From NCBI GenBank assembly GCA_902558585.1, contig CACEEO010000005.1, positions 1 to 44,115 of the forward strand: a DNA stretch of 44,115 nt, given 5' to 3'. Of the stretch, positions 17,574-37,075 are shown one piece after another. How positions within the stretch are numbered: position 1 is the first letter of the stretch; each line of letters opens with the position of its first letter. Position numbers and translations under genes: made by a program. This DNA is from an uncultured Pelagibacteraceae bacterium. Lineage in GTDB: Bacteria > Pseudomonadota > Alphaproteobacteria > Pelagibacterales > Pelagibacteraceae. Below the pieces are notes generated by a model. The model worked only from the letters and a program-made list of their open reading frames with translations, was not told the origin of the DNA and did no database searches.

Positions 17574-18013
17574 TAATAAAAAAAATTTATATAGTATTTT
17601 TTTTGTTATTTTTTACTCACATTTCGTTTGCTAATGAAATTTTTGTCTCTCTTAAAAAAATTAAAGTAAACGTTCGTTACGGACCAAGTTTTGAATCTGA
17701 TATTAAATACGTTTATAAAAAAATAAATCTTCCATTAAAACAAATCGATAAAAAAGAGAATTTCAGGCGAATTATAGATTTAAAAAATAACAGTGGGTGG
17801 ATTCATATCTCTCAATTAAAAAAAAGTAATTCTGTAATAGCTACGAAAGATAAAGTTTTATTTAAAAAACCTACATCTTTTGCTAAACCAATTGCTCAAA
17901 TAAAAGAGGGAAGATTATTAATTGTAGAAAAATGTGAACAAAATTGGTGTAAAATTACATCAGAAGAATTTGAAGGTTGGATTAAAACAGATAATATTTG
18001 GGGACTAAATTAA
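17558..18013 (+). CDS. Exported SH3-domain protein
   Basis: Signal peptide, then two bacterial SH3-like repeats (KVNVRYGPSFESDIKYVY...GWIHISQL; IKEGRLLIVEKCEQNWCKITSEEFEGWIKTDNIWGLN). Confidence 0.82.
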   Translation: MLMQLIIKKIYIVFFLLFFTHISFANEIFVSLKKIKVNVRYGPSFESDIKYVYKKINLPLKQIDKKENFRRIIDLKNNSGWIHISQLKKSNSVIATKDKVLFKKPTSFAKPIAQIKEGRLLIVEKCEQNWCKITSEEFEGWIKTDNIWGLN

Positions 18014-18609
18014 CTAAAATCAGTAGATAAAGAGGCTATATTTTCTTTAGATAATCTTGTGCTATGAGAATACTCTTTATGATCAATTCCGAGCTCAATT
18101 TCTGAGTTATTAGATTGAAATTTTTCTATTTGATCATCAGTAAAATTAAAATGAATAAACTGTACTGATGAAGCTTTTCCTTCAGAAGAAGTTCTATCAA
18201 CATCCTCTTCGGGAACTGCTTTAATTTTCTCACCATTTATTTTCATAAATACTGTTTCTTCTATTCCACCAACTTTTCCAAGAAACGCAGCTCTTGAGAT
18301 GGGGTTATCTATTTCAAACATTAAAGTTGCTGTTAGTTCTTTGCCGTTTGGTATTAAAGGATTGTACGCAGATAACTCATCCTGAAGTTGCTCATCACCA
18401 CCTTTTTCAATGTATAGCATTTCTTGTACTTGAGCTAACATTGTTTCATAACTTTCAAAATAAAAAGTGGCATAAGGCCCTAAAGCAACTCTTCTATTTT
18501 TTTTATAATCAACAATACTTTTTCTTAATTCACGTCTCTTTTCTATATAAACATCTAAAGGCATGATGTCTTCTTTTCGAATTTCTTTTTTTTCTCTAGG
18601 CATGATCAT
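18010..18609 (-). CDS. DUF3501 family protein
   Basis: KEDIMPLDVYIEKRRELRKSIVDYKKNRRVALGPYATFYFESYETMLAQVQEMLYIEKGG matches my recollection of the DUF3501 family; adjacent to Fe-S and rubrerythrin genes. Confidence 0.75.
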   Translation of the reverse strand: MIMPREKKEIRKEDIMPLDVYIEKRRELRKSIVDYKKNRRVALGPYATFYFESYETMLAQVQEMLYIEKGGDEQLQDELSAYNPLIPNGKELTATLMFEIDNPISRAAFLGKVGGIEETVFMKINGEKIKAVPEEDVDRTSSEGKASSVQFIHFNFTDDQIEKFQSNNSEIELGIDHKEYSHSTRLSKENIASLSTDFS

Positions 18610-19937
18610 AAGTTATAACTTTTTGCCATCAATTCGATAGGGTGTAGTGCCTCATCATTAGATATATTTGTATCAACTTCTAACTGTTTTAAATGTTTAC
18701 CAGCTAAAGGACAATCAGAAGCCATATACTTATTATTTTTAGTTTTTATTTGTCTAGCTGTAGGTCTTCCAACTTTATTTGCTAAATCATGAGTTTCTTT
18801 CATTACTCCAAAAGTTCCTCCATGACCTGCACATCTTTCAACTACATCAATTTTAACGTTTGGTATCAATTTTAACATATCTCTTGCTTTGATACCCATG
18901 TTCTGTGCCCTAGCATGACATGCGTGATGTACAGTTACTCCTCCATCAATCTCATTTAATCCTTCTGCTAATCCCTCATTGTTTGCAATATCCACAACAT
19001 ACTCATCAATATCCATAACATTTGAAGATAATTTTTTTATTTTTTCATCGTTTGGTAATAACAAGGGCCATTCGAATTTTAACATCAATCCACAACTAGC
19101 TGTTAAAGTTACTACTTTATATCCTTTATCTATCCATTCATTTAAATCCTTAGAAACTTTTTTCGCTTGTTCAACAACTTTTGGCAGATCTGCTTGCTCT
19201 AAAAATGGCATCCCACAACAACCAGGATAAGCTTCTTGAACCTCTACACCATTTTTTTTCAAAACTTTTAAAGCAGCAACACCCGTATTTTTTTTATTAA
19301 AATTCACAAAACAAGTTGAATAAATAACTACTTTTCTATCTTTAGAAGGTGTTAGATAATTTATCTTATCTTTATTTTTTTTAAAAAAATGTGAAAAAGT
19401 TTCTGAGTTATATTTTGGTAACTGAACTCTTTTATCTATTCCTGCAATAAGTTCCAAAATTTTTCTAATTAATTTATTTTTAATATTTGATGCCCAGTTA
19501 ATTATTTTTGAAAACATTACACCAATTTTGGCGTTTCGGTCTATTTGGGCTAATTGTGTTGGTATATTTGGTAATTTACCTAATTTTTTTTGAGCTGTTC
19601 TATATCTCAGCATTAAATGTGGAAAATCTAAATCAAAATCATGAGGTGGAACATATGGGCATTTAGTCATAAAACACATATCACACAAAGTGCATGCATC
19701 AACAACAGGGGCAAATTGATCGCTAGATAAGCTTTCAACATCCTCATTTTTAGACTCATCAATCATGTCAAATAACTTTGGGAAAGAATCACAAAGATTA
19801 AAACATCTTCTACATCCATGACAAATATCAAACACTCTTCTCATTTCAGCATCTAATTTTTCTGGATTTAAAAAATCTGGATGCTCAAAATCTATTGGAT
19901 GGCGTATAGGTGCACCTAAACTTCCTTCTTTGCTCAT
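18606..19937 (-). CDS. GlpC/heterodisulfide-reductase-like Fe-S protein (2x 4Fe-4S plus CCG domains)
   Basis: CHGCRRCFNLCD and CTLCDMCFMTKCPYVPPH cluster motifs, CCG-type regions AYPGCCGMPFLEQAD and CAGHGGTFG. Confidence 0.88.
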   Translation of the reverse strand: MSKEGSLGAPIRHPIDFEHPDFLNPEKLDAEMRRVFDICHGCRRCFNLCDSFPKLFDMIDESKNEDVESLSSDQFAPVVDACTLCDMCFMTKCPYVPPHDFDLDFPHLMLRYRTAQKKLGKLPNIPTQLAQIDRNAKIGVMFSKIINWASNIKNKLIRKILELIAGIDKRVQLPKYNSETFSHFFKKNKDKINYLTPSKDRKVVIYSTCFVNFNKKNTGVAALKVLKKNGVEVQEAYPGCCGMPFLEQADLPKVVEQAKKVSKDLNEWIDKGYKVVTLTASCGLMLKFEWPLLLPNDEKIKKLSSNVMDIDEYVVDIANNEGLAEGLNEIDGGVTVHHACHARAQNMGIKARDMLKLIPNVKIDVVERCAGHGGTFGVMKETHDLANKVGRPTARQIKTKNNKYMASDCPLAGKHLKQLEVDTNISNDEALHPIELMAKSYNL

Positions 19938-20002: not shown

Positions 20003-20419
20003 TTAGCTAATAGACTCTAAAGTTTTTTGAAATTTACCAGCATGTGATTTTTCAGCTTTAGCTAAAGTTTCAAACCAGTCAGCAATTTCTTCAAAGCCTT
20101 CTTCTCTAGCTGTTTTAGCCATACCAGGGTACATATCAGTATACTCATGAGTTTCGCCTTGTACTGCCGAAGCTAAATTTGCTTTTGTTTCACCAATTGG
20201 CATACCAGTTCCTGGATCACCAACTTCTTCTAGATACTCCAAATGACCATGTGCGTGACCAGTTTCACCTTCTGCTGTTGATCTAAAAACTGCAGCTACA
20301 TCATTGTAACCTTCTATGTCAGCTTTTTGTGCGAAATAAAGATATCTTCTGTTTGCTTGACTTTCACCAGCAAACGCTTCTTTTAAATTTTCTTCTGTTT
20401 TACTTCCTTTTAAAGACAT
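20003..20419 (-). CDS. Rubrerythrin family protein
   Basis: [97 protein letters not shown]: paired ExxH diiron motifs. No C-terminal rubredoxin domain. Confidence 0.95.
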
Positions 20420-20447: not shown

Positions 20448-20475
20448 CATATAATAGTTATTAAGATTATGTCAA
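20448..20475 (-). promoter_or_regulatory. Sigma70-like promoter of the rubrerythrin gene
   Basis: On the reverse strand TTGACA-(16 nt)-TATATG, followed by a short leader with AGGAG before ATG (AAAAGGAGAAAAATAATG). Confidence 0.55.
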
Positions 20476-20478
20476 CAG

Positions 20479-20495
20479 TTTAGAATTATTATAAT
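20479..20495. promoter_or_regulatory. Candidate Irr/ICE-like operator upstream of the rubrerythrin promoter
   Basis: TTTAGAATTATTATAAT: left half-site TTTAGAA is perfect, right half 2 mismatches from TTCTAAA; lies 3 bp upstream of the -35 hexamer. Confidence 0.45.
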
Positions 20496-20524
20496 GTAGT
20501 TTTTAAGTATTTGATTTGATAGAA

Positions 20525-20953
20525 TTATTTTTGAGTTTGATTATCACTCGCAACTCTTACCAAAACTTCAACGGAATTTATTTTTTTTCCAGTTATTTTT
20601 TTTCTAATATTTATTTTGTCTATATCGCTCTCATCACAATCGATTAGCTCATGCGTGTCTTCATCAAAAAAATGATGATGTGCTGATGTGTTTGTATCAA
20701 AATAACTTTTATGACTATCGATTGAAATTTCTTTTAGGTATCCTTTTTTTTCAAATGCATGAACTGTGTTATAAACTGTAGCTAGTGATATCTTTTGATT
20801 CATTTTCTCAGATAACAATTTAACCAAATCGTTAATTGTGAAATGAAAAGTTTTTTCTCTATTATACAAAACTTCACACATTTCTACTCTTTGCTTAGTA
20901 GGTCTAAGTCCAACTTCTCTTAATTTTTCAATAAAATTGCAGTTTTTTGGCAT
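20525..20953 (-). CDS. irr: Fur-family regulator, Irr type
   Basis: LREVGLRPTKQRVEMCEVLY, ISLATVYNTVHAFEKKGYLKEISIDSHKSYFDTNTSAHHHFFDEDTHELIDC resembles Irr proteins (YFDTNTSxHHHFF). Divergent from fabA, as in many alphaproteobacteria. Confidence 0.88.
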   Translation of the reverse strand: MPKNCNFIEKLREVGLRPTKQRVEMCEVLYNREKTFHFTINDLVKLLSEKMNQKISLATVYNTVHAFEKKGYLKEISIDSHKSYFDTNTSAHHHFFDEDTHELIDCDESDIDKINIRKKITGKKINSVEVLVRVASDNQTQK

Positions 20954-20958
20954 TGTTT

Positions 20959-20975
20959 TTTATAATTATTCTAAA
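20959..20975. promoter_or_regulatory. Candidate Irr/ICE-like operator upstream of irr (irr-fabA intergenic)
   Basis: TTTATAATTATTCTAAA: one mismatch from the palindrome TTTAGAA-N3-TTCTAAA, ending 5 bp upstream of the irr start codon. Confidence 0.5.
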
Positions 20976-21046
20976 GTATGAATAAAAATATAATGTTTTA
21001 TTATATTATATTAGGATTAAATCAAGTATTAAGGGAGCTCAAAATT

Positions 21047-35330: not shown

Positions 35331-36659
35331 CTAAGCAACCTTCTGATCCGAATTGGTTATAACTTCACCGAATAAAGTGTTTCTATTACTATCTTTAATT
35401 CTCACTTGCACTATTTTTCCAATATCATTCTTTTTACCATTAAAAATTACAGATGTCATATACTCAGATCTGCCAAAAGCTTTGCTTTTATCGTCTGTTA
35501 AATTTTCAACCAAAACATCAACGACTTTACCCTTCAATGAATTATTCATTCGAATTTGATTTGCGAATAAAATATTTTGAATTTTTTCTAATCTTTCAAT
35601 AGAAATTTTTTTTTCAGTTAATTTTAAATTTTCAGCTACTGTTCCTGGTCTTGGGCTAAAGATGAAAGAGTAAGAGTTAATAAATTTAACCCTTTCAATT
35701 AAATTAAAGGTATTTTTAAAATCCTGATCTTCTTCACCAGGATAACCTATTATAAAATCGCTTGAAAATTCTATGTTTGGGTTAATTTTTTTTAATTTAT
35801 CAAAAGTATTTAAATATTCCTCAATAGTATGTTTTCTATTCATTAATTTTAAAATTTTATTAGATCCACTTTGGATGGGTAAATGTACAAGTGGCATTAA
35901 CTTTTTAGAAGTTTTATAAACTTCAATCAAATCCTCCGTCATATCTTTTGGGTGAGATGTTGTGTATCTAACTCTTTTAATTTCAGATATTTTTTCAATG
36001 TTAAATATTAAATCTGATAGTCTGTATCCTTCATTGTCATAAGCATTTACATTTTGACCAAGTAAAATTATTTCTTTTGCTCCACTATCAGCTAAATATT
36101 TTGCTTCATCCAAAATTTGATTAAATGGTCGAGAATATTCTGGTCCTCTTGTGTATGGGACTACACAAAAATGACAAAACTTATCACATCCTTCTTGAAT
36201 AGTTAAGAAGGATGAAACTTTTCCAGCTTCATTTTTTATTTTACTTAAATATTTAAATTTAGAAACTGCATCAAACTCTGTCTCTTCTATTTTTTTCTTT
36301 TTTTTAGTATAATTTAAAATTGTATCATTAATTTTATGATAAGCTTGAGGACCAATTACTAAATCTATGTAAGGTTCTCTTTTAAGCATTTCTTGGTTTT
36401 CTGCTTGAGCAACACACCCTGCAATAATCACCAATGGTTTTTTTTTAGATCTAAAAATTTTTTTTACTCTACCTATTTCATGATAAACTTTTTCTTTTGC
36501 TTTATCCCTAATGTGACATGTGTTTAAAAGATAACAGTTTGCTTCTTCATATTTTTCTGTTTTTTCATAACCAATTTTTTTAACTGAATCATATATCCTA
36601 TTAGAGTCATACTCATTCATTTGACATCCAAAAGTTTTAATAAATATTTTTTGATTCAT
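35331..36659 (-). CDS. miaB: tRNA-2-methylthio-N6-dimethylallyladenosine synthase
   Basis: FIKTFGCQMNEYDS, LNTCHIRDKA, EGCDKFCHFCVVPYTRG radical-SAM CxxxCxxC, C-terminal TRAM region. Confidence 0.96.
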   Translation of the reverse strand: MNQKIFIKTFGCQMNEYDSNRIYDSVKKIGYEKTEKYEEANCYLLNTCHIRDKAKEKVYHEIGRVKKIFRSKKKPLVIIAGCVAQAENQEMLKREPYIDLVIGPQAYHKINDTILNYTKKKKKIEETEFDAVSKFKYLSKIKNEAGKVSSFLTIQEGCDKFCHFCVVPYTRGPEYSRPFNQILDEAKYLADSGAKEIILLGQNVNAYDNEGYRLSDLIFNIEKISEIKRVRYTTSHPKDMTEDLIEVYKTSKKLMPLVHLPIQSGSNKILKLMNRKHTIEEYLNTFDKLKKINPNIEFSSDFIIGYPGEEDQDFKNTFNLIERVKFINSYSFIFSPRPGTVAENLKLTEKKISIERLEKIQNILFANQIRMNNSLKGKVVDVLVENLTDDKSKAFGRSEYMTSVIFNGKKNDIGKIVQVRIKDSNRNTLFGEVITNSDQKVA

Positions 36660-36664
36660 AATTA

Positions 36665-37075
36665 TTAGGATTTTTTCTTAACCCCATATAATTCTAATTT
36701 ATGGTCTACTAATTTATATCCATATTTTTCTGCAACTTTTTTTTGCAACTTTTCAATTTCTTCGTCTACAAATTCTATGATTTCACCAGTTTTCACATCT
36801 ATTAAATGATCGTGATGGCCTTCATTTAATTCTTCATATCTAGCCTTTCCACCTTTAAACTCATGCTTTGTTAATATTCCAGACTCTTCAAATAGTTTTA
36901 CCGTTCTATAAACAGTTGCAATACTTATTTTTGGATCAATTTTAGACACTCTATTATAAAGTTCATCTACATCCGGATGATCAGAAGACTCGGACATTAC
37001 TTGTGCAATCACTCTTCTTTGATCAGTTAATTTAACTCCTTTTGCTATACATTTTTGCTCTATTGTTTCTGACAT
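36665..37075 (-). CDS. fur: Fur-family metalloregulator (Fur/Mur)
   Basis: GVKLTDQRRVIAQVMSESSDHPDVDELYNRVSKIDPKISIATVYRTVKLFEESGILTKHEF; GHHDHLIDVKTGEIIEF. Confidence 0.92.
   Translation of the reverse strand: MSETIEQKCIAKGVKLTDQRRVIAQVMSESSDHPDVDELYNRVSKIDPKISIATVYRTVKLFEESGILTKHEFKGGKARYEELNEGHHDHLIDVKTGEIIEFVDEEIEKLQKKVAEKYGYKLVDHKLELYGVKKKS

Follow-up and report, generated by a model that had tools for sequence, protein, structure and literature searches.

The window analysed here, a stretch of 44,115 nucleotides from an uncultured Pelagibacteraceae bacterium, contains a gene for a Fur-superfamily regulator, irr, with a block of three genes headed by the rubrerythrin gene rbr lying beyond it on the same strand. 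The features of the locus are as follows, in order of their coordinates:

18010..18609, minus strand: gene for a DUF3501 protein (PF12007, 211 bits), third gene of the rbr block
18606..19937, minus strand: gene for a CCG-domain iron-sulphur protein (PF02754), second gene of the rbr block
20003..20419, minus strand: rbr, a rubrerythrin of 138 amino acids without a rubredoxin domain (Pfam Rubrerythrin, 102.5 bits; NCBIfam)
20448..20453, minus strand: probable -10 of the rbr promoter, TATATG, by inspection, with a 16-bp spacer
20449..20464, minus strand: decayed second operator O2, TTAATAACTATTATAT, with 3 mismatches, between the rbr -35 and -10
20470..20475, minus strand: -35 of the rbr promoter, TTGACA; TTGAC lies at the same offset in relatives
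20476..20498, plus strand: predicted operator O1 for Irr in the rbr promoter, directly next to the -35; 23-mer CAGTTTAGAATTATTATAATGTA, core 20479-20495
20525..20953, minus strand: irr, 142 amino acids, an Irr of the Fur superfamily by profiles and tree
20956..20978, minus strand: predicted operator for Irr just before irr itself; 23-mer TACTTTAGAATAATTATAAAAAA, core 20959-20975

A preliminary description of this DNA had proposed two palindromic sites flanking irr. Both were read from the window where it had placed them, as TTTAGAATTATTATAAT at 20479-20495 and TTTATAATTATTCTAAA at 20959-20975; both are intergenic, and they differ from TTTAGAANNNTTCTAAA by two bases and one base, respectively. 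Its account of their surroundings was also correct: the first site is 3 bp away from the -35 of rbr (TTGACA, 20475-20470), and the second lies upstream of the irr start codon, with 5 bp from its end to the ATG. When the window was scored with a PWM, the rbr O1 operator was the top site (28.4) and the irr operator at 20956..20978 the second best (25.5).

That the gene between the two sites encodes Irr, as had been claimed, is backed by both tree and profile. The product contains a FUR domain (PF01475, 77.9 bits, against a gathering threshold of 23.1), and IrrA (133.9 bits) and Irr (121.4 bits) are by far its best NCBIfam models, even though the curated cut-offs of 150 and 170, respectively, are missed; PerR models reached at most 65.5 bits. 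In the tree, SAR11 Irr is nested in an alphaproteobacterial Irr clade of 59 rows (support 96/91), apart from Fur and PerR, although it should be noted that the PerR and Fur references are few and partial and that the branches are long. By its sequence, the SAR11 protein is a divergent member of the Irr family. His37, Asp86, His92-94 and Asp105 are invariant in the 29 SAR11 Irr proteins compared, and the HxH heme-binding motif (His92-His94) is thus present in 29/29. The three-His, two-Asp regulatory metal site of PerR is present, but is also invariant in other Irr proteins and hence does not discriminate. Neither the CxxC structural zinc site nor the Cys-Pro heme regulatory motif of the Bradyrhizobium subtype occurs in any of the 29 SAR11 proteins, which therefore resemble the R. 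leguminosarum subtype. The window also holds another gene of the Fur family, a Fur-like one (36686-37075; PF01475, 143 bits), at a distance of 16 kb from irr.

To compare the locus across the family, 197 genomes were searched, most of which gave a strong irr match; the irr tally of 169 among these 197 should be read with the consideration that it also counts genomes with a Fur-level hit alone. The comparison set consists of 90 SAR11-family irr loci, in all of which (90/90) a fabA match is found divergently upstream of irr. The site criterion was TTTAGAAynrTTATAA with at most one mismatch, and dinucleotide-preserving shuffles served as the control. TTTAGAAYNRTTATAA, with at most one mismatch, was found upstream of irr in 71/90 loci (shuffles, 0.27), a good site being absent there in the other 19. 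In the gap between irr and the gene after it, 89/90 loci have such a site (shuffles, 0.13). Among the g1 relatives, the mean major-base frequency was 0.924 in the columns of the irr site and 0.763 in the rest of the gap, and 0.937 in those of the rbr site as opposed to 0.767. The comparison that the preliminary description had named as a possible refutation, of the palindromes with drift in the flanking A+T-rich sequence, thus favours the sites, which are phylogenetically conserved. Orientation is uniform in all 71 sites upstream of irr, and likewise in all best sites before katG, while the best site before rbr is reversed in 18 loci and forward in 13. In the same irr-fabA gap, at 21018-21028, lies TACTTGATTTA, which most of the 90 loci keep, which stays beside fabA in the irr-deleted locus L187, and which may be part of the promoter of fabA. 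As for possible effects of the sites on fabA, which had also been raised, nothing but the shared gap speaks for them.

From position frequencies over the SAR11 loci, the element is about 23 bp long, TAGTTTAGAATnATTATAAACTA, and is palindromic bar one base, where a G in the first half faces an A instead of a C. The likeness to the ICE motif that had been drawn holds for the geometry and the first half, which are those of TTTAGAA-N3-TTCTAAA. The second half, however, is consistently TTATAA in SAR11, and the sites are thus copies of an asymmetric 23-bp element rather than poor copies of the symmetric one. The position of O1 relative to TTGAC is conserved in the rbr promoters of relatives. Many rbr and katG promoters carry a second copy, O2, over the -10, which starts 10-12 bp past TTGAC in most O2-bearing loci. 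O1 and O2 run in opposite directions, with starts usually 29-31 bp and centres usually 30-32 bp apart, about three helical turns, although other spacings occur too. Where there is a single operator, in katG promoters and in many g3 rbr promoters, it lies over the -10. In the window, O1 is intact and O2 is decayed; relatives have TTTAGAATGATTATAT in its place, from which we infer that O2 was lost in the window's clade. The asymmetry at O2 can be explained by its second half supplying the -10 (TATAAA), an explanation that is limited to O2 and does not extend to the irr site or O1.

Next after irr comes rbr in 31 of the 90 loci and katG in the other 59, where katG lies on the strand of irr, 24-128 bp past it, and is preceded by the same operator. 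Two main KatG lineages occupy this slot, one with roughly 57-60% and the other with roughly 92-97% identity to the query. Among the 197 genomes, 32 have rbr, 130 have katG and none has both (Fisher p = 2e-18, a value that overstates independence, as the genomes are related). Those rbr loci whose downstream side was examined continue after rbr with the genes for the CCG iron-sulphur protein and then the DUF3501 protein; in the examined katG loci, none of the three occupies that position. A 2025 paper found katG to be common to most offshore Pelagibacteraceae genera, and its main text mentions neither rubrerythrin nor Irr (PMC12636525). The ferriperoxin-type single-domain rubrerythrin of Hydrogenobacter also lacks a rubredoxin domain, and its group III includes alphaproteobacterial proteins, with a peroxidase as the characterised member (PMC3317640). 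Unlike that ferriperoxin, the SAR11 protein, a rubrerythrin by sequence, is encoded together with a CCG iron-sulphur protein and a DUF3501 protein.

The reach of the regulon was assessed by pattern searches. In the window's own genome (0.86 Mb, 71% complete), exact TTTAGAAYNRTTATAA matches number exactly two, at irr and at its neighbour, and the looser symmetric pattern adds just two weak sites. In the other genomes checked, almost all of the off-locus one-mismatch sites inspected lie within ORFs, and none is in a suf or iron-uptake promoter. The regulon therefore looks local, in line with what had been described as a local regulon, although weak sites could be missed. A few candidates were considered and rejected. 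A third target in a TRAP transporter promoter, TAGTTTAGAACAACTATAAGTTG, is shared by the window genome and a single 98% relative but not by two others, the neighbourhood keeping an ACAACT-AGTTGT palindrome instead; exact sites at aroA-like, ilvB-like and glycosyltransferase-like loci of other genomes are inside reading frames; and a window site at 35904-35920 is, by inspection, inside the reading frame next to fur and not intergenic. That palindrome, ACAACT-N3-AGTTGT, lies upstream of a TRAP substrate-binding protein gene (L242-L245) and is conserved or nearly so in relatives. A pair of symmetric TTTAGAATTATTCTAA sites, spaced by 129 bp, occurs in L203 (G026:C1:75530-76946), where there is no long reading frame.

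Seven genomes have fabA directly followed by katG, with irr missing from the gap. In five of these seven loci the operator is gone (scores of 0.9 or lower); L186 has a weakened operator (18.3) and L187 an intact one (25.3). None of 13 further katG genes that lie elsewhere, with no linked irr, scores above 0.1. In comparison, no irr-bearing locus (of 90) scores below 17.9 in front of the scavenger gene; as the matrix was derived from these very loci, its construction accounts for part of their high scores, but not for the low scores of irr-less loci. Going by these scores, loss of irr is usually accompanied by decay of the operator.

The pairing of irr with rbr is common among other Alphaproteobacteria. 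An ICE-like site (at most two mismatches) precedes irr in 1/30 of these loci and rbr in 14/25, the sites at rbr being near-symmetric. By this comparison, irr-rbr with ICE-like sites is ancient in Alphaproteobacteria and the rbr site an inherited trait, and the irr-upstream site seems, within this sample, to have been added in SAR11. Four of the other alphaproteobacterial loci (L136, L141, L156, L157) have a perfect palindrome, TTTGTAA-N3-TTACAAA, unlike ICE, in the fabA-irr gap. That Irr acts via ICE on rubrerythrin-like genes is already known: its targets include mbfA and ccpA in R. sphaeroides and blr7895 in B. japonicum (PMC3413700). SAR11 shares with the Irr/ICE systems of Rhizobiales and Rhodobacterales the Irr family, an ICE-like operator and rubrerythrin-like or oxidative-stress targets. 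It differs from them in that the operator is longer and asymmetric by one base and lies upstream of irr, and in that the regulon apparently comprises no more than irr and the scavenger next to it. An operator of this asymmetric form, a regulon with nearly a single target and an exchange of rbr and katG behind one operator were not found in the literature searched, which left out the Rodionov 2006 predictions.

We interpret the two sites as operators of the Irr encoded between them, at its own gene and at the neighbouring scavenger operon, and give this reading a probability of about 0.78 on the strength of the tree, the profiles, conserved sites nearly restricted to irr and its neighbour, and their decay after irr loss; the one or two irr-less loci that keep an operator (L187, L186) count against it, as do the 19 loci with no good site before irr. 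An Irr dimer would bind the 23-bp near-palindrome at the 5' end of irr, in autoregulation, and would also bind the promoter of the neighbouring peroxide-scavenging operon, where the window's clade has one intact operator abutting the rbr -35 and many relatives a second copy covering the -10. Bound Irr most likely keeps RNA polymerase out, as the operators over the -10 and at the irr 5' end suggest repression. The scavenger would then be induced once Irr is released, whether by heme or iron loaded at the conserved His/Asp cluster or by peroxide. The published response complicates the iron side of the regulon as first proposed, although 'local iron/peroxide regulon' remains an apt description. 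In P. ubique, rbr mRNA rises 1.57-fold under iron limitation, the opposite of simple Irr repression in low iron, and irr mRNA follows stationary phase with Irr protein unchanged (PMC2864753). In sulphur-limited cells in stationary phase, rbr mRNA stands at 0.17 of the control and the protein at 2.24-fold. The Irr of R. sphaeroides likewise contributes little to the response to iron, and its targets are genes of oxidative stress (PMC3413700). In view of these data we favour a peroxide- or heme-linked signal.

Other readings need to be weighed. The sites might be chance palindromes of A+T-rich DNA, and as symmetric palindromes alone both are indeed no better than chance in such a genome: the symmetric pattern is not enriched in the window (23 matches with at most three mismatches, 29.6 expected) or genome-wide (60 sites with at most two mismatches, compared with 100 for a reversed control pattern). 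What goes beyond chance is their conservation, over loci whose Irr identity falls to about 44%; together with the frequency of the site in both gaps, the better conservation of its columns, the two flagged sites being the only exact matches in the genome, and the usual loss of the operator upon irr deletion, this leaves the chance reading practically negligible. Fur-family sites share a 7-1-7 geometry, and the sites could be bound by another such protein, either the Fur at 36686-37075, whose gene lies in the same window, or a Zur-like protein. This is improbable, as the sites are found at irr and its neighbour only and as the operator usually decays with irr loss, although a Fur-level hit remains in most such genomes.

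Instead of sensing heme, the regulator itself could sense peroxide by metal catalysis, as PerR does, with Fe or Mn as its corepressor. A Fur-superfamily regulator beside a peroxide scavenger is the known pairing of PerR with katA or rubrerythrin, and the half-site ATTATAA equals one half of a PerR box. The targets are peroxide scavengers, the conserved His/Asp residues correspond to the PerR regulatory site, and weak rbr induction under iron limitation fits the loss of a metal corepressor. Nonetheless, these residues do not vary in any alphaproteobacterial Irr examined, the CxxC pairs are absent, and profile and tree place the protein in Irr and outside PerR, and we consider a PerR-type sensor rather unlikely. 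Unlikely as well is that Irr mainly activates rbr in the window's clade, binding upstream of the -35 and recruiting polymerase in low iron or heme, with repression limited to irr itself and to promoters carrying the -10 operator. O1 abuts the -35, the rbr rise under iron limitation (PMC2864753) has the expected direction, and a review has Irr often activating, depending on ICE position (PMC7762939). Yet this rise is small, the lone operators of katG and many g3 rbr promoters cover the -10, a repressor position, and the -10 copy is also present in P. ubique itself (L030, assuming that G026 is HTCC1062).

If the sites are Irr operators, a further step can be taken, to which we assign somewhat less than an even chance: that SAR11 has a local Irr, whose regulon is itself and one exchange slot, filled by the three-gene rubrerythrin block or either of two katG lineages, and which senses peroxide-linked heme or iron status and not iron supply. 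The published habitat marker katG is hereby linked to its likely counterpart, as katG-less genomes often have rubrerythrin at the same site and under the same operator. SAR11 bacteria are among the most abundant in the ocean and have few transcription factors, with little-known targets, for which this locus offers a compact, testable circuit. The unsettled signal of Irr, be it iron, heme or peroxide, becomes addressable in cultured strains of both kinds, such as HTCC1062 with rbr and HTCC7211, for which a catalase gene, possibly the katG of this slot, is reported. The switch would have been kept across the family even though the peroxide enzyme was swapped for an unrelated one.
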